38,739 nt of DNA, taken from positions 1-38,739 of IMG/VR virus record IMGVR_UViG_3300025138_000108. One strand, 5' to 3'. Positions 4,545 to 37,661 of the stretch are shown here, in pieces (positions within the stretch are counted from its first letter, which is position 1; every line of letters starts with the position of its first letter). Made by a program: the position numbers and the translations under genes. The stretch is from a virus. The notes under the pieces were generated by a model. That model saw only the letters and a list, made by a program, of their open reading frames with translations. It was not told the origin of the DNA and searched no databases.

Positions 4545-5615
4545 ATGGCTAACAGTACTTCCGCAGATTTAAAACTTACGATCCAGGCAACAGGTGAAAA
4601 CTCTGGTACTTGGGGACAAATTACAAACACAAACTTAACTATTTTAGAACAAGCAATTGCTGGTTTTGAAACTGTTGGTATTACAACAGGTGCTACTTTA
4701 GCTTTCACAAATGGTGCAATTTCAAACGGTAAAAATCAAGTATTAAAATTAATAGGTACAATTGGAGGTGCAGTTAACGTTGTTGTTCCAGATACTTTAA
4801 CAAAATTATACGTTATAGATAATGCAACTTCAGGTGCTCATGCAGTAACTGTTAAAACTAGTTCAGGAACTGGAGTAACTTGGGCAGCAACCGACAAAGG
4901 TACTAAAATGGTTTATTCAGATGGTACTAATGTTGTTGATACAGCTTTCACAGAACTATCTTCAGATTATACACCACAGCTTTCAGCAGATTTAGACACT
5001 AACAGTCACAACATTATTATAGATACAGCACACAGTGTTTTAGATGAAAACTCTAACGAGCAAATTACATTTACAACTACTGGTTCAGCAGTTAATCATT
5101 TTGGCGTAACTAATGCAGCAACAGGTAATACACCTTCACTTGCAGCAGTGGGCGGTGACGCTAATATTGATTTTAATATTACACCAAAAGGAATTGGCAG
5201 AGCAACTTTCAATGGTCAAGGTAAAATTCAAAGTGTTGCAGAAAAAGTAACTACGGCAGCTATAGCAGCTACTGGTACAATTGCTTACGATGTTCTTACA
5301 CAAGCTGTTTTAAACTATACAACAGCTGCTTCAGGCAACTGGACATTAAATATTAGAGGTGATGGATCAAATTCACTAGACTCAATTATGGATACCGGTG
5401 AATCTATTACAATAGCTCACATTGTTGCTAATACTGGAACAGCTTATTATAACAGTGCGGTTCAAATTGATGGATCATCTGTTACACCTGAATACTCAGG
5501 CGGTTCAGCACCATCAGGAGGTAACATAAACTCATTAGATACTTATACTTATACAATTATTAAAACTGGGTCAGCTGCGTTTACAGTATTAGCAACCCAA
5601 ACACAGTTCGCGTAA
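4545..5615 (+). CDS. Tail fibre-like virion protein
   Basis: This 356-residue Thr/Ser/Ala/Gly-rich protein starts with the pattern TGENSGTWGQITNTNL (residues 17-32). I recognise that pattern from the N-termini of many marine phage tail fibre or baseplate-associated proteins. The body is predicted to be beta strands throughout, with a segment near 200-225 (NIDFNITPKGIGRATF) typical of fibre shafts. There are no catalytic motifs. It is followed directly by the glycine-rich adhesin and a small fibre-associated protein, so the three probably form the host-contact module. Fibre identity is likely, but receptor and fold are unknown. Confidence 0.6.
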   Translation: MANSTSADLKLTIQATGENSGTWGQITNTNLTILEQAIAGFETVGITTGATLAFTNGAISNGKNQVLKLIGTIGGAVNVVVPDTLTKLYVIDNATSGAHAVTVKTSSGTGVTWAATDKGTKMVYSDGTNVVDTAFTELSSDYTPQLSADLDTNSHNIIIDTAHSVLDENSNEQITFTTTGSAVNHFGVTNAATGNTPSLAAVGGDANIDFNITPKGIGRATFNGQGKIQSVAEKVTTAAIAATGTIAYDVLTQAVLNYTTAASGNWTLNIRGDGSNSLDSIMDTGESITIAHIVANTGTAYYNSAVQIDGSSVTPEYSGGSAPSGGNINSLDTYTYTIIKTGSAAFTVLATQTQFA

Positions 5616-5636: not shown

Positions 5637-6467
5637 ATGCCAATAATTGGAGCAAGAGGAGCAGCATCATCAGCAGGTTTTGGAGGAATCGGAGGAGCAG
5701 CGCCAAGAGCGCCCTACTCAGCTAGTTACTTAGTAATAGCAGGAGGCGGCCCTGGTTGGTATTCCGGTCAAGCTCAATCGTCTGGTGGCGGTGGAGCAGG
5801 CGGATATAGATCTTCTTATCCTTCAGACTCATCTTCAGGTGGTGGCGGATCAGTCGAAGCACAAAAAACTTTAAACCCAGGCACAACTTACACAATTACT
5901 GTTGGTACAGGAGGACAAGCTAGTACACTTGTAGGATCTGATATTACAGATGTATCAACTGTTAGAGGCGGTAAAGGCGCTGGCCCATATGACCCATCTT
6001 CAGTTGGTGGATCAGGTGGCGGTGGAAATAACCAGGGTCGAGCACCTTCTGCAGGAACTGCAAACGAAGGTTATGCAGGTGGATCTCGAGGCGGCGGCGG
6101 AGCTGGCGCAGTTGGAGGATCACCAAACGGAGGCGCAGGTGCAGCTTCTACAATTACTGGAGCCTCAGTTCAAAGAGCTGGCGGCGGTGCTACCGCGGGC
6201 GGAACTGGCGGAGCAGGAGGCGGTGGAAATGGTGGCCAAGGAAACCAAGCAGGTCAACCAGCAACTGCTAACACAGGTGGCGGATCAGGAGCAGGTGGAT
6301 TAGTTCCAGGTCAAGATAAGGCCCCAGGAAGTCCAGGTTCAGGTGTAATTATTGTAAGAATGCCTTTAGATAGTTTTTCAGGGGGAACTACAGGATCTCC
6401 AACAGAAGCAACGGATGGTACTGATAAAGTTTTAACATTCACAGCATCAGGAACATTATCAGGTTAA
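5637..6467 (+). CDS. Glycine-rich adhesin / tail-tip protein
   Basis: This 276-residue protein has a short Ala/Gly N-terminus, a YLVIAGGG strand near residue 31, then long runs of Gly with Ser, Asn and Ala (about 50-230). It ends in a SGVIIVRMP strand (about residues 234-242) and a short beta tail. This architecture is that of the glycine-rich domain proteins of phages. The characterised T-even gp38 adhesins fold their Gly-rich part as packed polyglycine II helices and expose variable loops to the receptor. Homology to gp38 is not claimed, only the same compositional design. It lies next to the fibre-like gene and at the edge of the oxygenase island. A strong AGGAG site precedes the ATG. Confidence 0.6.
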   Translation: MPIIGARGAASSAGFGGIGGAAPRAPYSASYLVIAGGGPGWYSGQAQSSGGGGAGGYRSSYPSDSSSGGGGSVEAQKTLNPGTTYTITVGTGGQASTLVGSDITDVSTVRGGKGAGPYDPSSVGGSGGGGNNQGRAPSAGTANEGYAGGSRGGGGAGAVGGSPNGGAGAASTITGASVQRAGGGATAGGTGGAGGGGNGGQGNQAGQPATANTGGGSGAGGLVPGQDKAPGSPGSGVIIVRMPLDSFSGGTTGSPTEATDGTDKVLTFTASGTLSG

Positions 6468-6468
6468 T

Positions 6469-6909
6469 ATGGCACATTACGCAAAAATAGTTGATAACGT
6501 AGTTACTAAATGCATGGTAGTTCACAACAGCTGTGAACTAGATGAAAATGGTCAAGAGTCAGAAGCAGTAGGAGTTGCTTGGGCTAAAAATCATCAAAAT
6601 GATCCTGACGGAACTTGGTTAAAAACTTCTTATAATTCCAATAGAGGTGTTTATTATAAAGACGGAACAAACGTTCCTCATGAAGATCAATCTAAATTAT
6701 TTAGAAAAACTTTTGCTGAAATAGGATTTGACTACGATCCTGTTAATGATTGGTTTAAACCAAATAAAACTTTAGAATCATTCGTATGGAGTGATGAACA
6801 TTGGGACTACAGACCACCACAAGCTGTGCCTGATGATGGACAACAATACGACTGGAATGAAGACCAATACCAATCTACAGGTGATGGTTGGGTCGTAAGA
6901 TCAGAATAA
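6469..6909 (+). CDS. Conserved fibre-associated protein, marine phage type
   Basis: This 146-residue protein begins MAHYAKIVDNVVTKCMVV and contains WLKTSYNSNRGVYY, AEIGFDYDP and an aromatic, acidic C-terminus rich in Trp, Tyr, Gln and Asp. The same plan (AHFAKI..., TSYN, G..YD...D.F..PKP) recurs in cyanophage and pelagiphage genomes near tail fibre genes. I take it as a small virion or fibre-associated protein. It begins one base after the adhesin gene stops. Its stop is adjacent to the end of the first minus-strand oxygenase gene, so transcription converges here with no visible terminator. Confidence 0.55.
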   Translation: MAHYAKIVDNVVTKCMVVHNSCELDENGQESEAVGVAWAKNHQNDPDGTWLKTSYNSNRGVYYKDGTNVPHEDQSKLFRKTFAEIGFDYDPVNDWFKPNKTLESFVWSDEHWDYRPPQAVPDDGQQYDWNEDQYQSTGDGWVVRSE

Positions 6910-7524
6910 TTATTTAAAAGCAGCGCCAGAAGCCCAACAGACTAAAGAGTTTCTTTCACCTTTTTTGATAGGTGTAACTTCATGCAACATAAAACTAGGA
7001 AAAACAACTAATAAACCTTGCTCTCTTTCTATGTTAGTTCCGTTTCTAGATTCATAAATTACAAGATCTCCACCTTTATATTTTTTAGGATCCGTTAATT
7101 GTATCGTACAGGACAGCTTTCTTACCATCACACCCGTGCCTCTATCAGTGTGAGCAAAGTAATGCTGTTTTGGTCCGTAGGATGTAAATTGTAAAGACTC
7201 TGCTAATCCCCACATATCAAATTTATAATGTTCATGGTTTAACACAACCATAGCATCAACGACTTTTCTATATAACCAAACATAATCTTCAACAGGTTTA
7301 ATCCAAGATATAGAACTATCTCTTGCACCTTTTATTTCAGCAGTTGCTTCAGGGTTTGTACCCCCTATTTTACCTTTAACTGTGAATAAACTTTTACCAT
7401 ATTTAACTATGTCATCGCATTGTTCAGGTGTTAAAAAATTTCTTACCCACGCATACGGAGGCATTTTATCTAAATGAAACGGCCATGCCGTTGTATTCAT
7501 TTTTATTATTTCATCATATTTCAT
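6910..7524 (-). CDS. 2OG-Fe(II) oxygenase, PKHD/prolyl 4-hydroxylase-like
   Basis: This 204-residue protein would use Fe(II), 2-oxoglutarate and O2 to hydroxylate an unknown substrate. The metal triad is His125-x-Asp127 (FAHTDRG) and His181 (FMLHEVTP), with Arg191 in ERNSLVCW expected to bind the 2-oxoglutarate carboxylate. The strand KYKGGDLVIYES (148-159) is typical of PiuC/PKHD-type prolyl 4-hydroxylase-like domains. An N-terminal helical segment (FLTPEQCDDIVKYG) matches the usual start of this family. It is last in a three-gene minus-strand block and overlaps the upstream gene by 11 bases. The fold and cofactors are well supported but the substrate is unknown. Confidence 0.88.
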   Translation of the reverse strand: MKYDEIIKMNTTAWPFHLDKMPPYAWVRNFLTPEQCDDIVKYGKSLFTVKGKIGGTNPEATAEIKGARDSSISWIKPVEDYVWLYRKVVDAMVVLNHEHYKFDMWGLAESLQFTSYGPKQHYFAHTDRGTGVMVRKLSCTIQLTDPKKYKGGDLVIYESRNGTNIEREQGLLVVFPSFMLHEVTPIKKGERNSLVCWASGAAFK

Positions 7525-8002
7525 TTTGTATTCCTTTATAAGCTAGAGTTATTCTAGGTATCCCTTTCTCTTTTGGTGATAATCCACGATGCCACAATTT
7601 AGCATTAAACACAACAAGTTTATTTTGTTCAAAAGTTATTTTATGCACCTTATTATCTTTGTCTTTTATCTCAAACAATCCTGAATCTTTTTTTAAAGTT
7701 GGTGTAACCATTAACATATAAGTTTTATTTCCATCATCTTTGTGCCATCCTCCATCCATACCATTAAACTGCATATTGATGTATATTCTTTTAAATTGAT
7801 TTACTTTAAATTTGTTAATAATTTTATAAGTTACAAAATTAGTAACTCCATCGTTATGAACTTGAGTGTAAAAAAACGTGCCTTTAGTTATACCAGGTCT
7901 AGATGCATGGCCATATTGATGTTGAGTGTTAATTAAATAATGATTTGTTAAATAGTCTATAAAGTCTTTATCTAAAAAATTTCTGTATTCTTCTACAATC
8001 AT
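7514..8002 (-). CDS. 2OG-Fe(II) oxygenase, small P4H-like
   Basis: This is a compact 162-residue oxygenase. The metal residues are His87-x-Asp89 (GWHKDDG) and His138 (KLWHRGLSP), and Arg150 in IPRITLAYK is the expected 2-oxoglutarate anchor. The strand MLMVTPTLKKDSGLFEI between them corresponds to the core sheet of the double-stranded beta-helix. The N-terminal half (VEEYRNFLDKDFIDYL) is the helical cap seen in related phage proteins. It overlaps the upstream oxygenase gene by four bases (ATGA type) and the downstream one by 11, so translation is probably coupled. The substrate is unknown, with virion protein, nucleic acid or small molecule all open. Confidence 0.85.
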   Translation of the reverse strand: MIVEEYRNFLDKDFIDYLTNHYLINTQHQYGHASRPGITKGTFFYTQVHNDGVTNFVTYKIINKFKVNQFKRIYINMQFNGMDGGWHKDDGNKTYMLMVTPTLKKDSGLFEIKDKDNKVHKITFEQNKLVVFNAKLWHRGLSPKEKGIPRITLAYKGIQNEI

Positions 8003-8571
8003 CTCATTAATGGTCCTTCCATAAACAAAGCTAATGTTTTTCTTTCTCCTGTTTCAACAGGCATAACCATGTGATTAAGATAAGATCTAAACACAAGAAC
8101 GTCTCCTGCTTGAGTAAATTCATTTACAATATATGGACCTGAATTAAAAATGTGAAAGGCACCACCTTTATATGGTTTAGTAGAGATATTAATTAAGCAA
8201 GTTAATTTCATGTCTTTGTATTGTTTAGTAGTTTGATCTATGTGCCATCCATAGTTACCCTTAGTCTTTGAAGAATATATATTGTAATTAATAAAATCTT
8301 TATCTCTTAATGGATAAACAGAATAACCAAAATGATTATCATTTGTGTGTACAATTAAATTTTCTAAATCACCTAATAGATGTTTTATTTTACCCCAATA
8401 AATTAACTTGGTATCTACATTTTTAATTTTATTATTGTCATGATCTTTAGCTGCGTGTTGTTCGGGTTCATCCCCGTCAATGTTTTTACATGCAAAAGCA
8501 TCTATTTCTTTAATTTCGTTTTTTGTAAAAACGTTTTTAAAATACCAATAATCAGGTCTTGTTTCAGACAT
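7999..8571 (-). CDS. 2OG-Fe(II) oxygenase, P4H-like
   Basis: This is the first gene of the left minus-strand block and encodes 190 residues. The triad is His110-x-Asp112 (YGWHIDQTT) and His167 (YLNHMVMPV), with Arg177 in GERKTLALF. The strand PYKGGAFHIF and the following GDVLVFRSYLNHMV are the usual strand pair around the distal His in phage hydroxylases, so the active site appears complete. A promoter-like TTGACT/TATAAT pair lies on the minus strand 25-51 bases upstream of the ATG. The HxD-to-H spacing and overall plan resemble 2OG-Fe(II) proteins of cyanophages. The substrate cannot be predicted. Confidence 0.87.
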   Translation of the reverse strand: MSETRPDYWYFKNVFTKNEIKEIDAFACKNIDGDEPEQHAAKDHDNNKIKNVDTKLIYWGKIKHLLGDLENLIVHTNDNHFGYSVYPLRDKDFINYNIYSSKTKGNYGWHIDQTTKQYKDMKLTCLINISTKPYKGGAFHIFNSGPYIVNEFTQAGDVLVFRSYLNHMVMPVETGERKTLALFMEGPLMR

Positions 8572-8595
8572 ATTTTTATTTCTATCTATTGGATG

Positions 8596-8622
8596 ATTAT
8601 AATAAATGATTTATAAAGTCAA
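8596..8622 (-). promoter_or_regulatory. Candidate divergent promoter at the first strand switch of the island
   Basis: On the minus strand, TTGACT (8622-8617) is followed after 15 bases by TATAAT (8601-8596), placing a start site about 17 bases before the ATG at 8571. The octamer ATTATAAT (8596-8603) is self-complementary, so it also gives a TATAAT on the plus strand (8598-8603). No good plus-strand -35 is seen. The minus -35 lies inside the first codons of the plus gene at 8606, which hints that this gene may really begin at its second Met (8624). The 15-base spacer is short for sigma70. Confidence 0.4.
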
Positions 8623-8956
8623 TATGAATATTAAGTTTGCGAAAGAATACTTAAATAATACAATATGGAATCTTGATAATTTAGATTGGCAAGTGTCGGG
8701 TATTATTAAAAATAGATCTAATGAAAACCTGAAGTTTGACATTCGTTTTCTAAAAGATTATAAAGACAAAGGATTAGGGAAGATTATATCTGAAAAGTCA
8801 AAAGCAGATAAAGTTTTATTTGAAGATAAATTTTCTTGGTTGCTAATAGACACGAAAGAGTTAATAAAATATATGAAAGCAAAACAGCTAAAACAAATAA
8901 CAGTAGAAGAATTAAAATCTAATATAGATTGGAACATAGAATTGCCTAAAGTATGA
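8606..8956 (+). CDS. Unrecognised 116-residue protein in the oxygenase island
   Basis: This is the only member of the island without an oxygenase motif. The protein is Lys- and Asp-rich with few Gly residues. It shows FDIRFLKDY (residues 44-52), IISEKSKADKVLFED (60-74) and WLLIDTKELIKYM (78-90). The alternation of D, E..K and D.KEL loosely recalls small PD-(D/E)XK-like proteins, but I cannot align it and make no functional claim. Met1 at 8606 overlaps promoter-like bases and lacks a ribosome site, so Met7 at 8624 is an alternative start. It overlaps the next oxygenase gene by four bases, so it belongs to that operon. Confidence 0.6.
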   Translation: MIYKVNMNIKFAKEYLNNTIWNLDNLDWQVSGIIKNRSNENLKFDIRFLKDYKDKGLGKIISEKSKADKVLFEDKFSWLLIDTKELIKYMKAKQLKQITVEELKSNIDWNIELPKV

Positions 8957-9462
8957 AACTAGATTTATTCCCTGTAACAGTATTTATTGGTAACGTTGAT
9001 TTAAAAAAAATTAAATTAAAGTCAGAAATCACCACAGCTTTTTTATCAAACACCCCTACATCTATAGATAGTAAAAATGAATTAGACCCTGAAAGTGCAA
9101 AATATATTTTAAATGTTATGGGCAATCTAATGCATGAACAATACAAACATTTTAAATTAGATCTCTTAAGTATATGGAGAAACAAATATCAAGACAATGA
9201 TTTTCAAGAACCCCACATTCATTGTAGCTCAAAATTTTCTTTTATTATTTACGAAAAAGTAACTAAGGTAAATACTGTTTTCTTCAATCCTGCTAAGTAT
9301 TTAATAGATTGCATAGGTGCAGATTATGTTTATAGAAACTTCACGCCGCAACTTAAAACAGGACAAATTATTATCTTTCCTTCTTATGTTGAACACATGG
9401 TAAATAAAAACTCAGATCAAGTAACTATATCGGGAAACCTAGGTTTTAAATGGACCCAATAA
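8953..9462 (+). CDS. 2OG-Fe(II) oxygenase-like protein, HxH type, lacking the usual Arg
   Basis: This 169-residue protein has the layout of the putative 2OG-Fe(II) oxygenase family known as TIGR02466. The proximal motif is His88-x-His90 (EPHIHCSSKF), then GQIIIFPSYVEHMV with His148, and then the terminal strand DQVTISGNLGFKW. In the related island protein at 11393-11971 the matching strand reads DRISISFNYSF. Here the 2-oxoglutarate-binding Arg is therefore replaced by Gln156. The protein may have altered cosubstrate use, weak activity or a regulatory role. The start overlaps the preceding gene by four bases. Family membership is likely and activity is uncertain. Confidence 0.78.
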   Translation: MKLDLFPVTVFIGNVDLKKIKLKSEITTAFLSNTPTSIDSKNELDPESAKYILNVMGNLMHEQYKHFKLDLLSIWRNKYQDNDFQEPHIHCSSKFSFIIYEKVTKVNTVFFNPAKYLIDCIGADYVYRNFTPQLKTGQIIIFPSYVEHMVNKNSDQVTISGNLGFKWTQ

Positions 9463-10337
9463 ATTATATAAAAGTAAAAACTATCGGTCTTAAACATTCT
9501 CACAGTAATTTGTTTGAACACAGTTACAATCTTTATTTGTTATTACAACACATGAACTGTCCTAAGTATGTGTGCTTTGCCGGCTTGTACCATTCTATTT
9601 ACGGTAATCAATATTTTGGAACAGGTCTTGCGGTTAAAAGAAGCTTCATTAAAAAAACAATTGGAATAAAAGCTGAGGCATTAGTCTATAAATTTAATAA
9701 CACTAAGAACAGAGATGAATATTTTTTAAAACACGCTAACAAATATAAAGAACTATTTTTAATTTGTTACGTTAATTTATTAGATCAGTCAGAAGACAGC
9801 GATGATTTATTAAATAGATACGTAGAAAAATATAAGAAGATAAATAAAAATTTTAAAATAAGTAAACATGTTGATGTCATAGATAATCTTTTAGACCAAA
9901 GCGACTATTTTAATTTATCTAGTGCTGTATTAGATAAAGGTTTTCCTTGGTATTTCTCTGCTAGTAAAGTCGAAGACAGCTATCCTCAGTTTGTGCACAC
10001 TTTTGTTTACAACAGCGCAATCACTTCTGATTACATAAAACATCTTGATCCAATATTTAAAAAGTTAAATGTCAAAAGATTATTTAGAGTTAAATTAAAT
10101 TATACTTCAAAAACATCTAAAATTATTAACTATGCTTTTCATCAAGACGTTAATATAGCTTGTAAAACGGCGGTGTATTATATTAATACGAATAACGGCT
10201 ATACAAAAATAAAAGACGGCGAAGATATTACAAGCAAAGCAAATAGAATAGCTATCTTTAATAGTTCTCTTGAACATGCGGGATCTTCTTGTACCGATCA
10301 AAACTACAGAATAATATTAAACATAAATTATTTATAG
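9450..10337 (+). CDS. HD-like domain fused to a 2OG-Fe(II) oxygenase
   Basis: This is the largest island protein, at 295 residues. Residues about 10-150 resemble an HD-fold domain. They carry a His cluster (KHSHSN at 15-20, FEHSYN at 22-27) and the motif AGLYHSIYGNQYF (44-56), close to the AGLFHSIYGT signature I associate with DUF6817. The usual HD pair is His48-Ser49. Residues about 160-295 are an oxygenase domain with His231-x-Asp233 (AFHQDVN), His276 (SLEHAGSS) and Arg287 (NYRIILNINY). That half is clearly homologous to the stand-alone oxygenase at 12510-13001, with shared FPWYF-type, YxNxNNGYT and RxxxNxNY stretches. Two-domain chemistry is possible but unproven. Confidence 0.82.
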   Translation: MDPINYIKVKTIGLKHSHSNLFEHSYNLYLLLQHMNCPKYVCFAGLYHSIYGNQYFGTGLAVKRSFIKKTIGIKAEALVYKFNNTKNRDEYFLKHANKYKELFLICYVNLLDQSEDSDDLLNRYVEKYKKINKNFKISKHVDVIDNLLDQSDYFNLSSAVLDKGFPWYFSASKVEDSYPQFVHTFVYNSAITSDYIKHLDPIFKKLNVKRLFRVKLNYTSKTSKIINYAFHQDVNIACKTAVYYINTNNGYTKIKDGEDITSKANRIAIFNSSLEHAGSSCTDQNYRIILNINYL

Positions 10338-10338
10338 A

Positions 10339-10899
10339 ATGAGAAAACATTTAAATCATTACATATTAAAAGTTAAACTACTTACCAAAAAAGAATGTAA
10401 AACAATTGTAGAGGAACTAAAAGAAGTTAAATGGCACGAGCATTATTGGAACAGTCCTAAAGCCGGTATTACTAGCGACAACGGTAGTCAAGAACCCGAA
10501 ACAACATCCGAACTTATACCTTCACATGAATCTATTATGAAAAAGCTACATCCAAAAATATTACAGTATATGAAATATATTGATCTCCCTTGGTATGATG
10601 CTTGGAACGGATACACTAAATTAAAGTTTAATAAATATACGACTAACACTAAAATGAGAACACATTGTGATCACATACACGGCTTTCATAATAATGGACC
10701 TACAGGTGTTCCTATTTTAAGTTGCTTAAGTTTATTAAATGATAATTTTGAAGGAGGAGAAATTATGATGTTTGAGAATGAAAAGATAACATTAAAACCA
10801 GGTGAGTTACTTATTCATCCATCAAATTTTTTATTTCCCCATGAAATAAAACCTGTTACAAAAGGTCTTAGATATTCATTCGTAAGTTGGGTGTTTTAA
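10339..10899 (+). CDS. 2OG-Fe(II) oxygenase, prolyl 4-hydroxylase-like
   Basis: This 186-residue P4H-type domain has His109-x-Asp111 (RTHCDHIH), the strand FEGGEIMMFENE (137-148) and His168 in LFPHEIKPV. Arg178 lies in GLRYSFVSW. The sequence GELLIHPSNFLFPHEI between the GG strand and the distal His is the standard family layout, so all catalytic positions are present. The N-terminal helix LLTKKECKTIVEEL is the usual cap of phage P4Hc proteins. It begins one base after the HD-fusion gene stops and ends one base before the next oxygenase gene. The similarity to peptidyl hydroxylases makes a protein substrate plausible but not shown. Confidence 0.88.
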   Translation: MRKHLNHYILKVKLLTKKECKTIVEELKEVKWHEHYWNSPKAGITSDNGSQEPETTSELIPSHESIMKKLHPKILQYMKYIDLPWYDAWNGYTKLKFNKYTTNTKMRTHCDHIHGFHNNGPTGVPILSCLSLLNDNFEGGEIMMFENEKITLKPGELLIHPSNFLFPHEIKPVTKGLRYSFVSWVF

Positions 10900-10900
10900 T

Positions 10901-11401
10901 ATGGGAATAAAGATATACAAAAATGTTCTACCAGAAGATTTAATTGAAGAGGTATTTACTTATCTAGATAATAACGCCTCCAAAAATATTTGGCGTTCAA
11001 CAATATACTGGAAAGATAATTTAAAAGGTAAGAATCCAACAGCTTTACAAGTTACAGATCTTCCTATTTTTATGTCTGAAAGAGTTATTAATTGTTTTGA
11101 GAAATTAAATAAATCATACAAAAAGTATACACACCATTGTATGTTTTACATATGGCCACCTCTAAGTCATATTGGTTGGCATAATGATGCTAAGTGGCAA
11201 ATGGGTACAAGTATATATTTAAATAAGACTTGGGATAGAAATGATGGAGGTTTGTTTTTATATAAAGAAAAAGGACAAAATAAATTTTATGTCCCTGAAT
11301 ACAATACTTGTGTTGTTAATAGCAATCACACTGATCATGCAGTATCGGCTTTAGCTTCGCACGGTCCGCACAGATTAAGTCTTCAAATATTTTCAGAATG
11401 A
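10901..11401 (+). CDS. 2OG-Fe(II) oxygenase
   Basis: This 166-residue oxygenase is the last gene of the plus-strand block. The metal triad is His94-x-Asp96 (IGWHNDAKW) and His146 (HTDHAVSAL), with Arg158 in PHRLSLQIF as the cosubstrate anchor. The strand NDGGLFLYKE (114-123) matches the GG strand of P4H-type proteins, and an aromatic stretch (MFYIWPPLSHIGW) leads into the HxD. Its 3' end overlaps the end of the convergent oxygenase gene at 11393 by nine bases. There is therefore no room for an intergenic terminator, and the two operons would produce complementary RNA ends. The substrate is unknown. Confidence 0.87.
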   Translation: MGIKIYKNVLPEDLIEEVFTYLDNNASKNIWRSTIYWKDNLKGKNPTALQVTDLPIFMSERVINCFEKLNKSYKKYTHHCMFYIWPPLSHIGWHNDAKWQMGTSIYLNKTWDRNDGGLFLYKEKGQNKFYVPEYNTCVVNSNHTDHAVSALASHGPHRLSLQIFSE

Positions 11402-11971
11402 GTAATTAAAAGAGATAGAGATCCTATCTTCTTTTGAGTTATTGACATCTACAGAGTGTCCTAACCAGGATGGAAATAAAACTAGAAACCCATCTTTTGG
11501 ACTAACATTCCACGCAGACGAATTATATCTATCGTAAGAATTAACATATGCTTTAGGTAAATAGCTGCTCATTAAATTACCTATAGGGTTTTCAAATATT
11601 AGATCTCCTGAATTTTTAGGCACTGATATATAATAAACACCTGAAATAATAGCTTGAGGATGCATATGAGATTTATTGCTACAGCCAGGTTTATTTACAT
11701 TGATCCATAGGTTTGACATCTTAATATCTTTTTTAATTCTTAGAGAAGAAGAAAAAACTCGCAGGGGTGTTTCTAAACTTTCGGTAAACTCATTTATAAT
11801 CTTATCAGGTTTATCTAGTAGATTAGGGCTTTGATATCCACCCGCATTAGATTTAATTACTGAGGTATTTTTTTTAGATAAATTTAAACAGAATTTTTTT
11901 AATTGTTTAAGATCATTAGGGACTTCAGTATTTAAAGTTGGGACTGTAAATAATTCTGCTATCTGTATCAC
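11393..11971 (-). CDS. Putative 2OG-Fe(II) oxygenase, TIGR02466-like HxH type
   Basis: This 192-residue protein has the full TIGR02466-like plan. The proximal motif is His102-x-His104 in NKSHMHPQAIISGVYYI, followed by GDLIFENPIG (122-131). The distal region is LFPSWLGHSV with His172, and the terminal strand DRISISFNYSF carries Arg183. The acidic metal residue found in most 2OG oxygenases is a His here, as is usual in this family as I recall it. Such genes are frequent in cyanophage and pelagiphage genomes, but no substrate is established. It is the last gene of the right minus-strand block and overlaps its upstream partner by four bases. Confidence 0.83.
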   Translation of the reverse strand: MIQIAELFTVPTLNTEVPNDLKQLKKFCLNLSKKNTSVIKSNAGGYQSPNLLDKPDKIINEFTESLETPLRVFSSSLRIKKDIKMSNLWINVNKPGCSNKSHMHPQAIISGVYYISVPKNSGDLIFENPIGNLMSSYLPKAYVNSYDRYNSSAWNVSPKDGFLVLFPSWLGHSVDVNNSKEDRISISFNYSF

Positions 11972-12510
11972 TTATTACCTCTATTTAATTCTGCCATTGG
12001 AAAGAAGGGTGCATCTAATTTAGTGAAAAAGATAGCTTGTGTCAATCGTTCTTGATTTTCTTTTAGGTTATGTAGAGCTTGATGTGGAAAACAACCATCA
12101 AAACAAAACGCTGTATTAAAAGCACCATTAGATGTAGCCAACAAAGATTGATTAAGATTATTGTCATAAACGTTAGTGCCACTATTTTTTAAATTTTTAG
12201 ATAAATAAATAATGATTGTGAGTAAAGTATCTTCATCACAATGTATGTTACCATTTTTTTCTTTAACATTTTTCATTCTACAAAACACATTCTCAGCTAC
12301 GTATGTACATTTATGAACTGCTCCAAATATAGTTCTAAGAATCTTATCATTTGATAAATGAAACAAAGGGTAATCAAAGTTGTGAAGTGATTTAGTTCTT
12401 ACACCGATGCCGTCAGTAGCCTCTTGAGTATAGTCAAAGGTATTAGCTTTCTTGATAATTTCATCAGGATTATCATAAAAATTAGGTATAGTATAAATAG
12501 GAAAGTACAT
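11968..12510 (-). CDS. 2OG-Fe(II) oxygenase-like protein, DUF6445-like
   Basis: This 180-residue protein starts with TIPNFYDNPDEIIKKA and has DGIGVRTK near residue 36, the N-terminal plan of proteins catalogued as DUF6445 (recalled, not searched). The catalytic core has His90-x-Asp92 (GNIHCDEDT), a TIIIYLS strand, His143 in CFPHQALHN and Arg155 in ERLTQAIFF, so the metal and 2-oxoglutarate residues are all present. It overlaps the downstream gene by four bases and shares one base with the upstream gene. The divergent middle section (NSGTNVYDNN) replaces the GG strand of the P4H-like members, suggesting a different substrate pocket. Confidence 0.8.
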   Translation of the reverse strand: MYFPIYTIPNFYDNPDEIIKKANTFDYTQEATDGIGVRTKSLHNFDYPLFHLSNDKILRTIFGAVHKCTYVAENVFCRMKNVKEKNGNIHCDEDTLLTIIIYLSKNLKNSGTNVYDNNLNQSLLATSNGAFNTAFCFDGCFPHQALHNLKENQERLTQAIFFTKLDAPFFPMAELNRGNK

Positions 12511-13001
12511 TAATAATAATTTAAATTGATAACCATTCTTCTATCTGAATTAGTTTGAGATACAGCCCTGTGTTTAATAGCTGAATCAAACATCACAATA
12601 TGATTTGATTTTGATTTGACTGCTTTTCTTTTCTTTCCTGTTTGAAACTCTGTATATCCGTTATTAGAATTTACATAAAATATAGCAGTCTTATGTTGTA
12701 GTTTAGAATCGTTGTATTGATCAACATGCCAAGACGATTTTATTTCTTTGCCTTTATTAATCACAAGGTTAGCTCTAATATTTATTATCGCTATAGGTTT
12801 TAAATACTCTACTAGAGGAGCCACTAAATTAAAATAATCTGATTGTATGTTATGGCTCCAATAAAAAGGATGATAAAAATAAGAACTGTCTTTCACACTA
12901 GCTTGATGTGGGTGATAAAACCACGGAAACTTCTCAGACATCATTGTATCGTGTAGTGTTTGGAGATCTCCTAATTTTAATACTGCTTCTTTTATAATCA
13001 T
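12510..13001 (-). CDS. 2OG-Fe(II) oxygenase, stand-alone paralogue of the HD-fused domain
   Basis: This 163-residue oxygenase has His92-x-Asp94 (SSWHVDQYN), His144 (AIKHRAVSQ) and Arg155 (RRMVINLNYY). It aligns by eye over most of its length with residues 160-295 of the HD-fusion protein at 9450-10337. Shared features are FPWFY near the N-terminus, an SDYF/SDYI helix, a Y-N-x-N-N-GYT strand and the RxxxNxNY end. The pair is the clearest case of paralogy in the island, though the copies are too diverged to be a recent duplication. It lacks the HD-like part. It overlaps the upstream gene by four bases and the downstream one by one base. Confidence 0.84.
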   Translation of the reverse strand: MIIKEAVLKLGDLQTLHDTMMSEKFPWFYHPHQASVKDSSYFYHPFYWSHNIQSDYFNLVAPLVEYLKPIAIINIRANLVINKGKEIKSSWHVDQYNDSKLQHKTAIFYVNSNNGYTEFQTGKKRKAVKSKSNHIVMFDSAIKHRAVSQTNSDRRMVINLNYY

Positions 13002-13537
13002 AAAAATCTACTCCATGAAACAACCATTCTTCTACTAAAAGAATGTGCAGCGTGAGGTGTTCCTTTAGGTATATAAATAGCACCGCCCTCTGATACTTCG
13101 TATACTTTTTGTAAATGAGGAAAAGAATAATACGTAGATCCGCATAAACCTATAATACAAACATCTTCATGATCTGAATGTGGATTACCCATACTACTCT
13201 TAAATGATGTAAAAATATCTGGTCTAAAATCTTTATCGTCTGAATTTTTATGAAACACACTAGCAAGCTGTTCATGCAAAGAATTAATTTTTGGATGTCT
13301 TCTTACATTAAAAATTTCAAACACATGAGAAAAAACATCAGCGTGATTTACACCAACATCAGGATTGTGTTTTATCTCTGATCTAAAATGAGACATCTCT
13401 AAAAGCTGAAATAAATCGTCAAAATAAAAGGGTGATTTATAGTCGACAATATTTTGAAAATGGACTATATCCTTTGGTAAAGGCGTTTTATCTAAGAACT
13501 TAATAAACTCTGATTTGAGGGTATTTTTTTCTTTCAT
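12998..13537 (-). CDS. JmjC/cupin-like 2OG oxygenase (putative)
   Basis: This 179-residue protein, first in the right minus-strand block, differs in style from the P4H-like members. It has NPHSDHEDVCIIGLCGSTYY (118-137) with His120-x-Asp122, then GGAIYIPKGTPHAAHS (151-166) with His162 or His165, and Arg169-Arg170 near the end. A hydrophobic GSTYY strand after the HxD and a IPKGTPH loop are typical of JmjC-like and other cupin-fold hydroxylases. Bacterial members modify proteins such as ribosomal proteins, which favours a protein substrate here, but this is inference. The second His (His123) adds some doubt to the exact metal ligands. Confidence 0.75.
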   Translation of the reverse strand: MKEKNTLKSEFIKFLDKTPLPKDIVHFQNIVDYKSPFYFDDLFQLLEMSHFRSEIKHNPDVGVNHADVFSHVFEIFNVRRHPKINSLHEQLASVFHKNSDDKDFRPDIFTSFKSSMGNPHSDHEDVCIIGLCGSTYYSFPHLQKVYEVSEGGAIYIPKGTPHAAHSFSRRMVVSWSRFL

Positions 13538-13580
13538 ATTTGATGTATACTATACTAATTATTAATATATAATCAAGATT
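13538..13580. promoter_or_regulatory. Divergent promoter region at the right edge of the island
   Basis: This 43-base AT-rich gap separates the minus-strand oxygenase block from the plus-strand tail gene. On the minus strand TTGATT (13576-13571) and TATAGT (13554-13549) are spaced by 16 bases, a fair sigma70 match, although it leaves only a few bases before the ATG at 13537. On the plus strand TATAAT (13568-13573) lies seven bases before the ATG at 13581, which has no Shine-Dalgarno sequence. This arrangement would suit leaderless transcription, but no plus-strand -35 is evident. Confidence 0.35.
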
Positions 13581-15491
13581 ATGGCATTAAAAAAAGTAGA
13601 TTTTGCAGCAGGTTTCAATAAACAAAGCGTGCCCTCAGCTCTTCCAGGACAATGGGTAGACGGAGATTTTGTACGTTTTAGATATACTGCTCCAGAAAAA
13701 ATAGGTGGCTGGCAACAATTAAGTGTTGGGCAAGAAACTGTTCCAGGACCCGCTAGAGCTCAGTTATCTTTTACAAGTTTAAAAGGAGAGAGATACTCAG
13801 CAATAGGTACTTCTCAAGGCCTTTTTATATATTATGGAGAACAGTTTTACGATATTACTCCTTTAGATACCGCTATAACTGGAGCAACTTTTGATACCTT
13901 TTCAAGTCAAAATAATGTGACTGTTAACAAAACTTCTCATGGGTTGTCCGTGGGCAGGTATGTAACTTTTTCAGGGGTAACTCCCCCAACAGGTTATTCA
14001 GCGATAGATTTTACAACAGGTGCTTTTGAGATTCTAACTGTTCCTAATGATAATACTTTTACAATTCAAATGAGAGTTAATGCAAGTGGGGCAGCCTCTG
14101 CTTCAGGAGCTGCAACTATTAATCCTTATGTAATAATAGGACCTACATTTCAAACATTAGGATATGGCTGGGGAACGTATCTTTGGGGAAACTCTACATG
14201 GGGTACAGAAAGAGGAACTAGTAATGTAGTTTTAGATCCTGGTAATTGGTCTTTAGATAATTTCGGAGAAGTTCTTGTCGCAACTATTTTTAATGGTAAG
14301 ACATTTACATGGGATGCGGGAGCAACTAATCCCAGAACAGTCAGAGCTTCTACTTCTACTTCCGGTTTTTCTACTTCTGCTAATCCAACAGCTAGTAGAT
14401 TTACTCTTGTATCAGACAGAGACAGACATTTATTTCATTTTGGAACAGAAACAACTATTGGCACACCATCAACACAAGACCCTATGTTTGTAAGATTTTC
14501 GGACCAAGAAAATTTAAATGAATACACTCCTACCTCTATCAATACAGCAGGAACTTTTAGGTTGGATACAGGCAATAAAATTACGGCAGCTCTTCAAGGT
14601 AAGGATTATGTTTTTGTACTAACGGATCTTGCAGCTTATATTATTCAATTTGTTGGTCCACCTTTTACTTTTTCGGTAAGACAAGTAGGAACAAATTGTG
14701 GGTGTATAGCTCAACACGCAGCTTCTTATGTTAATGGAGCAGTCTATTGGATGTCGGGTGAAGGAGGATTTTTTATGTACGATGGTACGGTTAAATCTTT
14801 ACCTTGTCTGGTTGAAGATTTTGTATTTACTACAAATAATGGAAACTTAGGTATTAACTATAATTCAGCAGATACCATTTATTCAGCTCCAAATAGTTTA
14901 TACACAGAAATTAACTGGTTTTACCCTAAGTCGGGATCGGAACAAATTGATAGATGTGTGACTTATAATTTTGGTGAAAACGTATGGACTACAAGTTCAT
15001 TAGCTAGAACCACTTATCAAGACCAAGGTGTATTTAATTTACCTTATGCAACAGAATATAACGCAACGACGACTCCAGTATTTTCACCTATCTCAGGAAT
15101 TACCAATACATATGGAGCTTCTTTGTACTATGCTCATGAAATAGGAACCGATCAAGTCAATAGCTCGGGTACAACTTCTATTGATGCATTTATTAGATCG
15201 GGTGATTTTGACATTGAAGATGGGGAACTATTTATGTCTATGAGAAGATTTATGCCTGACTATAAATTTTTAGTGGGTAATTCTAAAGTAACTTTATTTA
15301 TATCTGATTTTCCTTCAGACACACAAACAGGTTCTCCTTTAGGTCCCTTTACAATAACAAGTACTACTGATAAAGTAGATACTAGAGCAAGAGGAAGATT
15401 ACTGTCTATTAAAATAGAAAATGATGCTGCAGGTGAAACTTGGCGTTATGGTAGTTTTAGGCTTGATGCACAACCAGATGGAAGAAGATAA
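13581..15491 (+). CDS. Tail nozzle/hub protein, P22 gp10-like (putative)
   Basis: This 636-residue protein begins LKKVDFAAGFNKQSVPSALPGQWVDGDFVRFRY and continues with PEKIGGWQ. This opening is characteristic of the large marine phage protein usually compared with P22 gp10, the packaged-DNA stabilisation and tail hub protein. Later parts are beta-propeller-like, with NCGCIAQHAASYVNGAVYWMSGEGGFFMYDG (about 372-402) as a recognisable segment. A short WG cluster (YLWGNSTWGT, about 199-208) echoes the repeats of the protein at 3027-4487. It resumes the plus-strand virion operon after the island, so the island separates two parts of one structural module. Confidence 0.6.
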   Translation: MALKKVDFAAGFNKQSVPSALPGQWVDGDFVRFRYTAPEKIGGWQQLSVGQETVPGPARAQLSFTSLKGERYSAIGTSQGLFIYYGEQFYDITPLDTAITGATFDTFSSQNNVTVNKTSHGLSVGRYVTFSGVTPPTGYSAIDFTTGAFEILTVPNDNTFTIQMRVNASGAASASGAATINPYVIIGPTFQTLGYGWGTYLWGNSTWGTERGTSNVVLDPGNWSLDNFGEVLVATIFNGKTFTWDAGATNPRTVRASTSTSGFSTSANPTASRFTLVSDRDRHLFHFGTETTIGTPSTQDPMFVRFSDQENLNEYTPTSINTAGTFRLDTGNKITAALQGKDYVFVLTDLAAYIIQFVGPPFTFSVRQVGTNCGCIAQHAASYVNGAVYWMSGEGGFFMYDGTVKSLPCLVEDFVFTTNNGNLGINYNSADTIYSAPNSLYTEINWFYPKSGSEQIDRCVTYNFGENVWTTSSLARTTYQDQGVFNLPYATEYNATTTPVFSPISGITNTYGASLYYAHEIGTDQVNSSGTTSIDAFIRSGDFDIEDGELFMSMRRFMPDYKFLVGNSKVTLFISDFPSDTQTGSPLGPFTITSTTDKVDTRARGRLLSIKIENDAAGETWRYGSFRLDAQPDGRR

Positions 15492-16159: not shown

Positions 16160-16337
16160 AGATATACCGACAATAAATTGTACAACTGTCATCACTTTTA
16201 GAAATACTAAAACTGGTGAAAAGTTTACTGAGAAAGTAGAAGGACCTGATATTGTTCAAGATGTAACAGTTCAAGTTTCTCCAAAAGGATTAGATATACT
16301 TCAGAAAGTGATGAAAAATGATAAATCAAAAGGCTAA
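16152..16337 (+). CDS. Small unknown protein, 61 residues
   Basis: A GGAGG-like site (GGGAGGA at 16142-16148) lies just before the ATG. The protein is short and beta-rich, with TTVITFRNTKTGEKF and DIVQDVTVQVSPKGLDIL segments and a Lys-rich tail. It overlaps the preceding gene by eight bases and the following glycosyltransferase gene by 20. I do not recognise a family beyond its recurrence in marine phages at this position. Confidence 0.55.
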   Translation: MDKDIPTINCTTVITFRNTKTGEKFTEKVEGPDIVQDVTVQVSPKGLDILQKVMKNDKSKG

Positions 16338-17256
16338 AGGCGGAACTGAATTACAGCTTGAGTACTTAGAAAAATACGTCAACAAAGAGTTATTGGATCA
16401 AGTACAGATTACTACGTCTGTCCCTGAAAAAATACCTTTACACTCTACAAAGTTAAACATACTTTGGCAAAAAAATTCTTACGATCAACCCAATATATAC
16501 CCGTGGTTTAAAAACAAAGAGAACCATAAAAAATATGATTGGTATATTTTTAATTCACATTGGACTCATGAAAAATTTAGAATGGTGTTTCAGGTTCCAG
16601 AAGAAAAATGTGTTGTTATTAAAAACGGAATAGATAATGTAGAAAAATCTAAACCTTATCAAAAAGGTGACCCTATAAGAATTATACATCAAAATACTCC
16701 CTGGAGAGGTTTAAATGTTTTACTAGGTGCTATGCAGAAAGTTAAAAATCCTTTAATTACTTTAGATGTTTATTCATCATGTGAAGTGTACGGAGAAAGT
16801 TTTCATAAAAATAATGATAAAAATTATCAAGCTTTATATGATCAAGCAAAAAAATTACCCAATGTAAATTATATCGGTTACAAATCAAACGCCTACATTA
16901 AAGAAAATCTTAAAAATTATAACATGTATGTTTACCCTAGTATCTTTGAAGAAACTTCTTGTATATCTTTATTAGAATCAATGGCTGCTGGTTTATATTG
17001 CATTACAACAAACTATGGAGCTCTATTTGAAACCGGCGCAGAATTTCCTATGTATATTCCCTACAGTAGTAATTACAAAAGTTTAGCTGAAAAATTTGCT
17101 TATGCTATAGAAGCTGCTGCAGCAAGTCTACATGAAACTACTATACACCATCATTTAATTTCACAATCTCAATACACACATCAGTATTATGGATGGAACA
17201 AACAAGCTTCATCTTGGACTAGGTTTTTACAAGGAGCTATAAATGCAAAAAAGTAA
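16318..17256 (+). CDS. Glycosyltransferase, GT4-like (GT-B fold)
   Basis: This 312-residue retaining-type glycosyltransferase would move a sugar from a nucleotide sugar to an unknown acceptor. The C-terminal half carries a GLNVLLGAMQKV helix (131-142), YIGYKSNAYIKENL (185-198) and the donor-site E-x7-E motif (Glu212 to Glu220 in EETSCISLLE). This is followed by SMAAGLYCITTNYGALFE (221-238), typical of the Glycos_transf_1 domain. The N-terminal domain is short but has the KGGTELQ loop (7-13). It overlaps the next glycosyltransferase gene by 14 bases. Position in the virion operon suggests glycosylation of a virion protein or cell-surface alteration (inference). Confidence 0.82.
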   Translation: MINQKAKGGTELQLEYLEKYVNKELLDQVQITTSVPEKIPLHSTKLNILWQKNSYDQPNIYPWFKNKENHKKYDWYIFNSHWTHEKFRMVFQVPEEKCVVIKNGIDNVEKSKPYQKGDPIRIIHQNTPWRGLNVLLGAMQKVKNPLITLDVYSSCEVYGESFHKNNDKNYQALYDQAKKLPNVNYIGYKSNAYIKENLKNYNMYVYPSIFEETSCISLLESMAAGLYCITTNYGALFETGAEFPMYIPYSSNYKSLAEKFAYAIEAAAASLHETTIHHHLISQSQYTHQYYGWNKQASSWTRFLQGAINAKK

Positions 17257-18142
17257 TTCGCCCAAAGGCACTAACAATGAGCCCCTTTGGTTTGATGAAA
17301 ACGATAAAACGATAACAACTATAAATGTTGGAGGCAATTCTCCACATAAAATTATGTTGTGTACCCCTTGTCATAGCGATGTCTCAATGCACTATTGCCA
17401 AGCTGTTTTAAAATTTCAACAAGAGTGTTGGCAGAAAAAAATATCAGTTAGTTTTACTTTATTAAAATCTTCACTAGTTACTCAAGGAAGAAATTTATGT
17501 GTAGCAGAAATGTTAAATCATCCAGATAAATACACTCACTTATTATTTATAGATTCAGATATAGATTTTCAAGCAAAGACTATATTTAAAATGCTAGAAG
17601 CAGATAAAGATATAATAGGATGTCCTTATCCTATGAAAATGTTTAGCTGGGATAAATCATGGAGAAGATTAAATGAGAAAAAAGATGCTATAAAAACTCA
17701 AGAGGACTACTTACGTAGTGCTTATACTTATCCTGTTAAACTAAAAGATCCAAATAATGTCGAAAGTAAAGATGGAATTATTGAAATGACCCATGCTCCA
17801 ACAGGATGTTTTTTAGTTAAAAGAGAAGTGTTGGAAAAAATGATGAAAGAGTACCCTGAATTAGAAATATTTCAACCTACTATCATTAACGGTAAAGAAG
17901 AAAAAAAACCTAATATGTTTAATTTATTTGATACTTTACATGATCTTAAAACCAAACGTTATTTTGGAGAAGACTTTGGGTTTTGTCAGCGATGGAGAGA
18001 TATCGGAGGTAAGGTATATGGTTATATAAACGATGATATTACTCATGTTGGAGAACACTCTTATACTGGTCGTTTCTATGATGACCTTTGGCAAGGTAGC
18101 AGACCTCTCAAATCGGTTGACGACACTAAAAAAATCAAATAA
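17243..18142 (+). CDS. Glycosyltransferase, GT-A fold, GT2-like
   Basis: This 299-residue protein has IMLCTPCHSDVSMHYCQAV (37-55), an SSLVTQGRNLCVAEML helix, and the metal-binding DxD in LFIDSDIDF (Asp104 and Asp106). The acceptor-side GEDFGFCQRW motif appears late, in the last quarter of the protein. The order matches phage Anp1/GT2-like transferases. It shares this plan with the replication-region protein at 33283-33990, including the RN-L helix, the DxDxxF and the GEDxxFC motif, so the two are paralogous. It is paired with a GT4-like gene, and two linked transferases often add successive sugars. Acceptor and donor are unknown. Confidence 0.8.
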   Translation: MQKSNSPKGTNNEPLWFDENDKTITTINVGGNSPHKIMLCTPCHSDVSMHYCQAVLKFQQECWQKKISVSFTLLKSSLVTQGRNLCVAEMLNHPDKYTHLLFIDSDIDFQAKTIFKMLEADKDIIGCPYPMKMFSWDKSWRRLNEKKDAIKTQEDYLRSAYTYPVKLKDPNNVESKDGIIEMTHAPTGCFLVKREVLEKMMKEYPELEIFQPTIINGKEEKKPNMFNLFDTLHDLKTKRYFGEDFGFCQRWRDIGGKVYGYINDDITHVGEHSYTGRFYDDLWQGSRPLKSVDDTKKIK

Positions 18143-27747: not shown

Positions 27748-27963
27748 ATGGTAAAATTTGTTTTAATTTTACAATTATGTAGTGTAGTACAGATGGATTG
27801 TATGCCTGAAATAAATCAAAATCCTCTATTCAATACACACTTTGATTGTGTCAATGCGGGTCACTTGCGCTCATTAAAACTATTAGATGAAGTTGGTGAA
27901 CAATTAGTTAACAGGGCAAAAATTCAGGTTCGTATTAAGTGCAAAACAGTTAGCGAAACCTAA
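27748..27963 (+). CDS. Small Cys-containing protein with hydrophobic N-terminus
   Basis: This 71-residue protein has a short hydrophobic start (MVKFVLILQLCSVV) that could be a weak signal or membrane segment, and four Cys residues at 11, 18, 34 and 65. The body includes FNTHFDCVNAGHLRSLKLLDEVG. The same pattern (signal-like N-terminus, C..MP....F.T..DC...G...S) recurs in marine phages as a short unknown gene. It lies between the XhlA-like gene and the SpeD-like gene, with which it shares one base. A periplasmic disulfide-bonded peptide is possible. Confidence 0.55.
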   Translation: MVKFVLILQLCSVVQMDCMPEINQNPLFNTHFDCVNAGHLRSLKLLDEVGEQLVNRAKIQVRIKCKTVSET

Positions 27964-28340
27964 TGAAAAATAGTTTACTTGTACACAAACATTTAATTAT
28001 TAGAGCTGAAATAAAAAAACCACCTACAGATGAAATGGAACTTAAGCATTGGTTTGAAGAATTTGTTGAGTCTATTAATATGAAAATATTTATGGGGCCT
28101 TATGTTAAATACTGTAAGATGCCTGGTAACAGAGGTATTACAGCAGTAGCAATTATAGAAACATCACATATCGCTATGCATATTTGGGATGAACCTAAAC
28201 CAGCATTAATGCAATTTGATGTTTATAGTTGTGGTGAGTTTAATGTAGAAGATATTTGCGAAAAAATAAGAGAAGATTTTAATGTAAGTAAAATAGAATA
28301 CAAATACTTAAATCGTGAGACAGGCCTGGTAGATATTTAA
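27963..28340 (+). CDS. speD: SpeD-like pyruvoyl decarboxylase (S-adenosylmethionine decarboxylase family)
   Basis: This 125-residue protein belongs to the AdoMet decarboxylase SpeD family, whose members cut themselves before a Ser to make a pyruvoyl cofactor. Classical members decarboxylate S-adenosylmethionine for spermidine synthesis. The active site is visible as ETSHIAMHIWDE with Ser68 as the self-cleavage residue and His73, then DVYSCG with Cys90. The residue before the Ser is Thr67, where many bacterial enzymes have Glu. Some SpeD homologues are reported to act on ornithine or arginine instead, so the substrate should not be assumed. No spermidine synthase gene is in the window. It ends four bases into the convergent helicase gene. 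Confidence 0.85.
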   Translation: MKNSLLVHKHLIIRAEIKKPPTDEMELKHWFEEFVESINMKIFMGPYVKYCKMPGNRGITAVAIIETSHIAMHIWDEPKPALMQFDVYSCGEFNVEDICEKIREDFNVSKIEYKYLNRETGLVDI

Positions 28341-33286: not shown

Positions 33287-33990
33287 GTACTAAACCACCT
33301 AAAATCTTTGTGTCAATGCCTTGCTACGACACAATGCAAGTTGCAACCTGTTTATCTTTATTAAAATTTTTTGATAAAGCAACTGTTGCAAAAATACCAA
33401 CACAAATAAGTACCTACAAATGTCCATACGTAGGTTATGCACGAAATATTCTAACAGCTATGTTTTTAGAATCAAAATTTGACTATCAATTATTTATAGA
33501 TGCTGATGTTGAATTTGAACCTGAAGCAGCCGGAGGTTTAATTTTAGCCCAAAAAGATTTTGTGTGTGCTCCTTACAGAAAAAAAACAGCCGATACTTCT
33601 GTAAAATACTCTGTTGCATTTAAAGATTTTCAAAATATTAATATAGATAAAAAAGGATTAGTAGAAATAACAGGAGGTCCAGCGGGTTTAACTTTAATTC
33701 ATCGATCGGTCTATGAAAAATTAATGAAAAAAAATCCTCACTTAAAAATAAACAATGAGGAAGTTATAAGTGCAGGGGCCAAACAATATTTATATAATTT
33801 TTGGGAAAATACTTTTAATTCTAAAACAGGAACATGGTCTGGAGAAGATGTTAGTTTTTGTAATTTACTTAAAGATGAAGGTATTAAAATGTACGCTACT
33901 GTTAATTCAGAGATAGGACATCACGGAACCTATAACTATAAGGGAAAGATTGTAGACACATTTAAACCTAAAAATGAATCAAGTAACTAA
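33283..33990 (+). CDS. Glycosyltransferase, GT-A fold, in the replication operon
   Basis: This 235-residue protein has KIFVSMPCYDTMQVATCLSL (7-26), a GYARNILTAMF helix (51-61) and the DxD metal motif in LFIDADVEF (Asp73 and Asp75). The segment GGPAGLTLIHRSVYEKL follows, then GEDVSFCNLL and HHGTYNYKG near the end. It shares this order with the GT-A protein at 17243-18142 but is shorter. A sugar transferase placed between primase and helicase genes could act on DNA bases or nucleotides, as in phages that glucosylate hydroxymethylated bases. That is inference, and virion or surface glycosylation is equally possible. It overlaps the helicase gene by 17 bases. Confidence 0.8.
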   Translation: MSTKPPKIFVSMPCYDTMQVATCLSLLKFFDKATVAKIPTQISTYKCPYVGYARNILTAMFLESKFDYQLFIDADVEFEPEAAGGLILAQKDFVCAPYRKKTADTSVKYSVAFKDFQNINIDKKGLVEITGGPAGLTLIHRSVYEKLMKKNPHLKINNEEVISAGAKQYLYNFWENTFNSKTGTWSGEDVSFCNLLKDEGIKMYATVNSEIGHHGTYNYKGKIVDTFKPKNESSN

Positions 33991-37659: not shown

Positions 37660-37661
37660 TT

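Follow-up and report, generated by a model that had tools for sequence, protein, structure and literature searches.

Hypervariable adhesin tips exchanged between related phages are familiar from the gp37/gp38-type modules of T4-like phages. The 2-oxoglutarate (2OG)-Fe(II) oxygenases of marine phages are generally treated as auxiliary metabolic genes, with proposed links to seasonality, nitrogen, iron and DNA repair. Wittmers et al. 2022 (PMC9599517) report eight non-orthologous 2OG-Fe(II) oxygenase genes in HTVC023P-type pelagiphages, often near each other though not adjacent, with ferrochelatase-named partners, and class them as auxiliary metabolic genes; in a time-series study (PMC11561400), the 2OG oxygenase and ferrochelatase-named categories are enriched in seasonal phages. 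Here we describe an island of eleven such genes in IMG/VR record IMGVR_UViG_3300025138_000108 (the window, comprising the entire 38.7-kb uncultivated viral contig) and find that it is swapped, together with two probable tail-tip genes, as one block between conserved anchor genes. The window is collinear in gene order with the Pelagibacter podophages HTVC027P and HTVC023P, to which its stabilization protein is 70% and 59% identical over the full length. Since the genomes of these phages measure 58–61 kb, the window is, on its sequence, a fragment of an HTVC023P-type pelagiphage, the group treated in PMC9599517; a marine virus, it probably shares the Pelagibacter (SAR11) host of its relatives. 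Oxygenase genes near one another were already known in this group; what is new is the exchangeable cassette that joins the array to a Gly-rich gene and its neighbour. The passages of PMC9599517 that were consulted mention neither unbroken arrays, of up to 12 genes, nor the edges of a cassette, its exchange along with the tip or the non-redundancy of its enzymes.

The features of the locus are as follows, with predicted metal ligands and 2OG-binding arginines given for each oxygenase (s1–s12, numbered along the island at 6910–13537).

4545–5615, plus strand: left anchor, a conserved tail-region gene, from locus comparison
5637–6467, plus strand: Gly-rich (30% Gly) tail-tip or adhesin-like protein, left part of the cassette, matching PF21722 (Gly_rich_2) above cut-off
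6469–6909, plus strand: second tip-region gene, phrog_7759 by PHROG match, whose similarity predicts array similarity
5683–13566, no strand: exchangeable hypervariable cassette with near-fixed edges, from the limits of DNA homology
6910–7524, minus strand: s1, PF13640, PiuC/prolyl-4-hydroxylase-like; H125, D127, H181, R191
7514–8002, minus strand: s2, phrog_274-type oxygenase; H87, D89, H138, R150
7999–8571, minus strand: s3, PF13640 oxygenase; H110, D112, H167, R177
8606–8956, plus strand: s4, conserved non-oxygenase gene of the locus, 116 residues
8953–9462, plus strand: s5, PF13759 oxygenase of HxH type; H88, H90, H148, without the usual Arg
9450–10337, plus strand: s6, fusion of DUF6817 with a C-terminal 2OG-Fe(II) oxygenase; H231, D233, H276, R287
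10339–10899, plus strand: s7, PF13640 oxygenase; H109, D111, H168, R178
10901–11401, plus strand: s8, PF13640 oxygenase; H94, D96, H146, R158
11393–11971, minus strand: s9, TIGR02466/PF13759 oxygenase with a GTG start; H102, H104, H172, R183
11968–12510, minus strand: s10, phrog_1644-type oxygenase; H90, D92, H143, R155; model nearest PHD2/OGFOD1/Tpa1
12510–13001, minus strand: s11, phrog_274 oxygenase; H92, D94, H144, R155
12998–13537, minus strand: s12, small JmjC/ribosomal-oxygenase-like protein (YcfD/NO66-like), 179 residues; H120, D122, H162, R170
13581–15491, plus strand: right anchor, conserved virion/stabilization protein (phrog_3287; its DSL-LC04 homologue is annotated as a stabilization protein)

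The edges of the block were located by comparison with 25 sister phages that have a different cassette but share at least 84% identity with the window in the stabilization protein. In all 25, DNA homology is lost at a median position of 5683 (interquartile range (IQR) 5672–5684), near codon 16 in the Gly-rich gene. It is regained at 13566 (IQR 13566–13566), some 15 nt ahead of the stabilization ATG; a single sister phage retains any nucleotide match between these edges, of 217 bp at 70%. The array makes up the larger part of the 7.9-kb cassette so delimited, the remainder being the Gly-rich gene at 5637–6467 and the gene at 6469–6909. The same cassette recurs at 88–98% identity in contigs L090, L093, L094 and L091/L118, whose flanks are 60–75% identical, with synonymous divergence (dS) of 0.04–0.96 within the cassette versus 0.87–2.2 in the flanking anchor genes, and seven separate cassette groups were found on divergent backbones. 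Tip genes and array are swapped as one block between conserved anchors, with near-fixed edges, conserved backbone on both sides and one and the same module on divergent backbones, and the suggestion in the initial annotation of a variable cassette with a bearing on host contact is supported in that the array changes together with the gene for the Gly-rich tip.

In 55 loci that have a Gly-rich tip, and with both anchors controlled, array similarity tracks that of the Gly-rich tip (partial rank r 0.34, 0/500 permutations) and of the phrog_7759 gene (partial rank r 0.23, 0/500 permutations), versus 0.10 (37/500 permutations) for the stabilization gene, which adjoins the array, with the tip controlled; locus pairs in these statistics share lineages and are not independent. 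All 25 pairs with a similar phrog_7759 gene on a divergent backbone have at least half of the array in common, and 54 of the 72 pairs with a near-identical backbone and a different phrog_7759 gene have no oxygenase in common. Because sister phages so often lack any common oxygenase gene, a multi-step modification pathway, the other option offered at first, becomes less likely. The same pairs bear on the auxiliary metabolic role under which such genes are usually filed, in which the enzymes would alter host 2-oxoglutarate/nitrogen or iron metabolism, as put forward in PMC3037559 (2OG/nitrogen), in PMC9599517 and in PMC13184970 (iron). Host iron and nitrogen genes do rise during HTVC027P infection (PMC12753301, the main text of which does not give the expression timing of HTVC027P gp72–74). 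We nevertheless consider this role improbable, since a metabolic need common to sister phages would not be expected to change with the adhesin, whereas near-identical backbones often carry wholly different enzyme sets swapped along with the tip.

The Gly-rich protein has the form expected of a modular distal adhesin, and receptor binding is predicted for it: its N-terminus, MP(I/L)xGxxGAGSxRGFG, is common across loci, the remainder is variable, PF21722 is its sole family match, and a comparison with PDB sequences gave no match to a solved adhesin. A conserved N-terminal anchor, a variable Gly-rich distal protein and exchange between phages are thus the points of likeness to gp37/gp38-type modules; the classical modules, however, carry a chaperone or adhesin where modules of the present kind carry up to a dozen oxygenases.

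The twelve open reading frames (ORFs) of the island were verified, neighbours lying next to each other or overlapping by a few bases, and eleven of them are 2OG-Fe(II) oxygenase-like, as the initial annotation had read from their metal motifs; s4 is not an oxygenase. Membership of these eleven in the 2OG-Fe(II) oxygenase superfamily is confirmed by profiles and structural models, and catalytic activity is predicted. Seven genes (s1, s3, s5, s7, s8, s9 and s11) match PF13640 or PF13759 above the curated cut-off, s9 additionally matching TIGR02466; s2 and s6 fall below the Pfam cut-off (E 3e-4 to 6e-4) and match phrog_274 strongly (3e-22 and 1e-41), the family that holds the Pfam-positive s11. 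Pfam/PHROG profiles therefore back nine of the eleven. There is no usable Pfam match for s10 and s12, for which AlphaFold models were built from relatives' alignments (predicted local distance difference test (pLDDT) 91.6 and 88.4) and their folds compared by Foldseek. Both are confidently modelled as double-stranded beta-helices, the fold assigned to the other nine through profile homology, and their nearest PDB structures are the hypoxia-inducible factor (HIF) prolyl hydroxylases (PHD2) and OGFOD1/Tpa1 for s10, and YcfD, YxbC, NO66 and MINA53 for s12. The sequence profile of s12 also matches YcfD (E 1.3e-5); that of s10 has no match among PDB sequences, and no relatives of s12 were found among the phage records or GTDB genome contigs searched. 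The HxD/HxH...H metal triad is at least 98% conserved in each of the eleven families and the 2OG-type Arg after the distal His in ten, s5 being without it; a regular expression for the triad is present in 1049 of 1068 called oxygenase genes versus 244 of 1055 other ORFs.

Both s12 and s10 share fold and metal triad with YcfD/RoxA, NO66/MINA53, PHD2 and OGFOD1/Tpa1. YcfD, however, has about 360–370 residues and the phage proteins about half that length, and only the catalytic core of s12 aligns with it (TMt 0.35–0.37). On its model, s12 would work like YcfD while standing outside the YcfD/RoxA class, whose dimerisation and winged-helix domains it lacks. For these proteins, 'DNA endonuclease V' (phrog_274) and 'minor coat protein' (phrog_1644) seem to be misnomers on the part of PHROG. 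A role in nucleic-acid repair or modification of the AlkB/TET kind has in its favour the names of phrog_274 and phrog_2297, the repair role suggested for cyanophage Syn9 homologues named DNA endonuclease V (cited in PMC2984593), and the position of an ACG-2014j gene near UvsY/UvsW. We rate it highly improbable, as profile searches gave no AlkB, TET or JBP family match for any of the eleven and the array sits in, and moves with, the tail-tip module rather than the replication module. For this reading and the metabolic one alike, the swap of a whole enzyme set with the adhesin is left unexplained and hard to reconcile.

All eleven oxygenases are under purifying selection, with ratios of non-synonymous to synonymous substitution (dN/dS) of 0.03–0.25 throughout and one exception of 0.35 at dS 0.04. 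They are mutually diverged, as first noted, the best pair in the window's array being 30% identical, and at the level of the locus 423 oxygenase genes from 74 loci fall into 187 families at 50% identity without any array holding two members of one family. Among 28–32 mutually distinct arrays, 0 pairs are at least 35% identical, against 13.6–16.1 expected when oxygenase genes are dealt to arrays at random (0/1000 shuffles). The initial view of diverse subtypes rather than recent tandem duplicates is upheld, tandem duplication within the array being ruled out by the absence of close paralogues, and each array resembles a non-redundant kit, as would be expected if its members differed in site or substrate.

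We propose that the island supplies the enzymes of an exchangeable cassette for the receptor-binding tip, in which matched, non-redundant protein hydroxylases modify the distal tail tip, a reading that we hold with middling confidence. Such a cassette would comprise a Gly-rich adhesin-like protein, a further gene of the tip region as its companion and as many as a dozen small oxygenases, each of which, drawing on host 2-oxoglutarate, O2 and Fe(II), would hydroxylate or oxidise particular residues of the linked tip proteins during virion production, and so tune tip folding, stability or receptor contact; each tip variant would travel with its own matched enzyme set. We infer the tip proteins as substrate, and favour protein hydroxylation as the chemistry on two grounds: proteins are the substrates of the structures nearest to s10 and s12, and the independent cyanophage runs described below adjoin tail-fibre genes, some with halogenase-named genes. 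A protein-hydroxylase character is suggested by the likeness of s12 to YcfD/NO66/MINA53, of s10 to PHD2/OGFOD1/Tpa1 and of s1 to prolyl-4-hydroxylase/PiuC. A search of open-licence papers for a link between phage fibres and prolyl hydroxylase found none. A bolder version, in which each cassette's private enzyme set would write a combinatorial hydroxylation pattern on its own adhesins and host range would partly be post-translational chemistry, is tentative and, in our judgement, somewhat doubtful.

Several observations weigh against this proposal. ORFs for a Gly-rich tip are missing from 17 of 74 loci, yet most of these carry oxygenases; the mixed orientation of the genes means that the array is not a single late operon; and in S-SSM7, Melnitz and ACG-2014j single genes of this type lie apart from tail fibres. 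With PHD2 over-represented in the PDB, a Foldseek match to it says little about substrate, and we know of no evidence establishing PiuC as a protein hydroxylase. Array and tip genes also lie within the same two anchors, and their co-exchange could be plain linkage. This is our main null: a recombination hot spot between the Gly-rich and stabilization genes would carry miscellaneous oxygenase functions whose link to the tip is physical, as is consistent with the common edges of array and tip, with single-gene swaps (L094 lacks s10 and has another oxygenase) and with pairs that have genes in common despite different tips. We think it unlikely, as the cargo is mainly of one fold across phages where an indiscriminate hot spot would gather a mixture, close paralogues are excluded and purifying selection is strong.

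The main functional rival to modification of the tip is modification of the host surface, in which the enzymes would oxidise the receptor, made up of host envelope proteins or glycans, and block superinfection or re-adsorption of progeny. Enzymes and adhesin would then match because both must match the receptor, so that the same co-exchange with the tip genes is predicted, and glycosyltransferase genes lie nearby on the backbone. This, too, we regard as rather unlikely: arrays hold up to 12 oxygenases, with no sugar or lipid enzyme beside them in the window's cassette, the nearest folds of known substrate for s10 and s12 act on cytoplasmic proteins, and no transmembrane or export feature was noticed, although no systematic search for such features was made. 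The cassette evidence assigns this group's oxygenases to the module of the receptor-binding tip and shifts testing from host metabolites to virion proteins, which is feasible in the cultured HTVC023P and HTVC027P. If the proposed modification of the tip is correct, an abundant group of ocean viruses would possess a many-enzyme protein-hydroxylation system for one virion structure.

A census of relatives, fetched by the flanking stabilization protein and hence without selection for oxygenases, yielded 37 complete intervals with a median of 5 oxygenases by sensitive profiles, 4 with the ferrochelatase-named family left out and 3 by one profile round, the relatives being metagenomic contigs and the counts varying with profile stringency, over medians of 3–6. 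The maximum was 11, and one of the 37 intervals had none; when loci fetched by oxygenase queries are included, arrays reach 12 (L165). A group with another composition on one strand (L113, L185, L189 and L225) has up to 11 by sensitive profiles, of which L185 retains 7 of 11 by strict criteria, and at the same locus HTVC027P has 3 oxygenases, and HTVC023P and 023Pt_psg01 have 4–5. The window's own 11-gene array recurs in the independent contigs L090, L091 and L093, and in L094 with one gene swapped. The variant at L094:10001–13583 lacks an s10 orthologue and has an extra oxygenase beside s5, an instance of single-gene turnover.

Runs of oxygenase genes also adjoin tail-fibre genes in the cyanomyoviruses S-RSM4, S-RIM44, Sf-CH3, S-SZBM1 and ACG-2014h. 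The first four resemble the window in having about 4–9 diverse small oxygenases in that position but, as T4-like cyanomyoviruses, belong to a separate lineage, and the arrangement is probably convergent with the pelagiphage array. S-RSM4 (FM207411.1; L246:4802–11074) has nine called genes, flanked by a tail-fibre-like gene and the neck gene g13; eight give Pfam 2OG matches of varying strength and one is ferrochelatase-named. The phage has been isolated, and most genes of the run are annotated as hypothetical. Several cyanophage runs differ in also having tryptophan-halogenase-named genes, which separate the oxygenase run from the tail-fibre genes in three cyanophages (L242:2782–5893, L243:4398–5954 and L249:3927–5513), and further oxidative tailoring enzymes may be part of the same kind of module. 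The density of the island, described at first as extraordinary, is thereby put in context: HTVC023P-type relatives normally have arrays of 2–12 at this locus and S-RSM4 has 8–9, so the window is not unique and the phenomenon is broader than one contig. Overall, the initial interpretation keeps its diverse subtypes and its variable cassette, now favoured over a pathway, and loses its claim to uniqueness.

The ferrochelatase-named family (phrog_2954), which was reached by iterated profiles only and is excluded from the conservative count, has an invariant HxD...H, with HxD at 109 and 111, H162 and a PGDMLVY segment in an alignment (L086:10295–10915). These features are suggestive of a 2OG oxygenase; hhalign of phrog_2954 against two oxygenase alignments was negative, and a profile search of the PDB found nothing relevant. 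The family phrog_3531 looks like a fusion of the phrog_2954 domain with a 2OG domain.

Within the array, DUF6817 lies on the N-terminal side of the oxygenase domain of s6 (9450–10337). Homologues of s4 number 43 ORFs in related loci, often directly upstream of the stabilization gene, and the window's copy lies within the array. A TATATA-rich element at 13549–13575, about 10 nt ahead of the stabilization ATG, is found again in relatives, including those in which a minus-strand oxygenase starts back to back with the stabilization gene, and is a possible divergent promoter; a sigma-70 promoter scan found 43 against 41 expected. Elsewhere in the window, a glycosyltransferase gene followed by one for a phrog_1574 protein occupies 16318–18142, a second phrog_1574 protein is encoded in the replication module (33283–33990), and an S-adenosylmethionine decarboxylase (PF02675) and a ferredoxin-named protein (phrog_3704) are encoded at 27963–28340 and 37656–38312.

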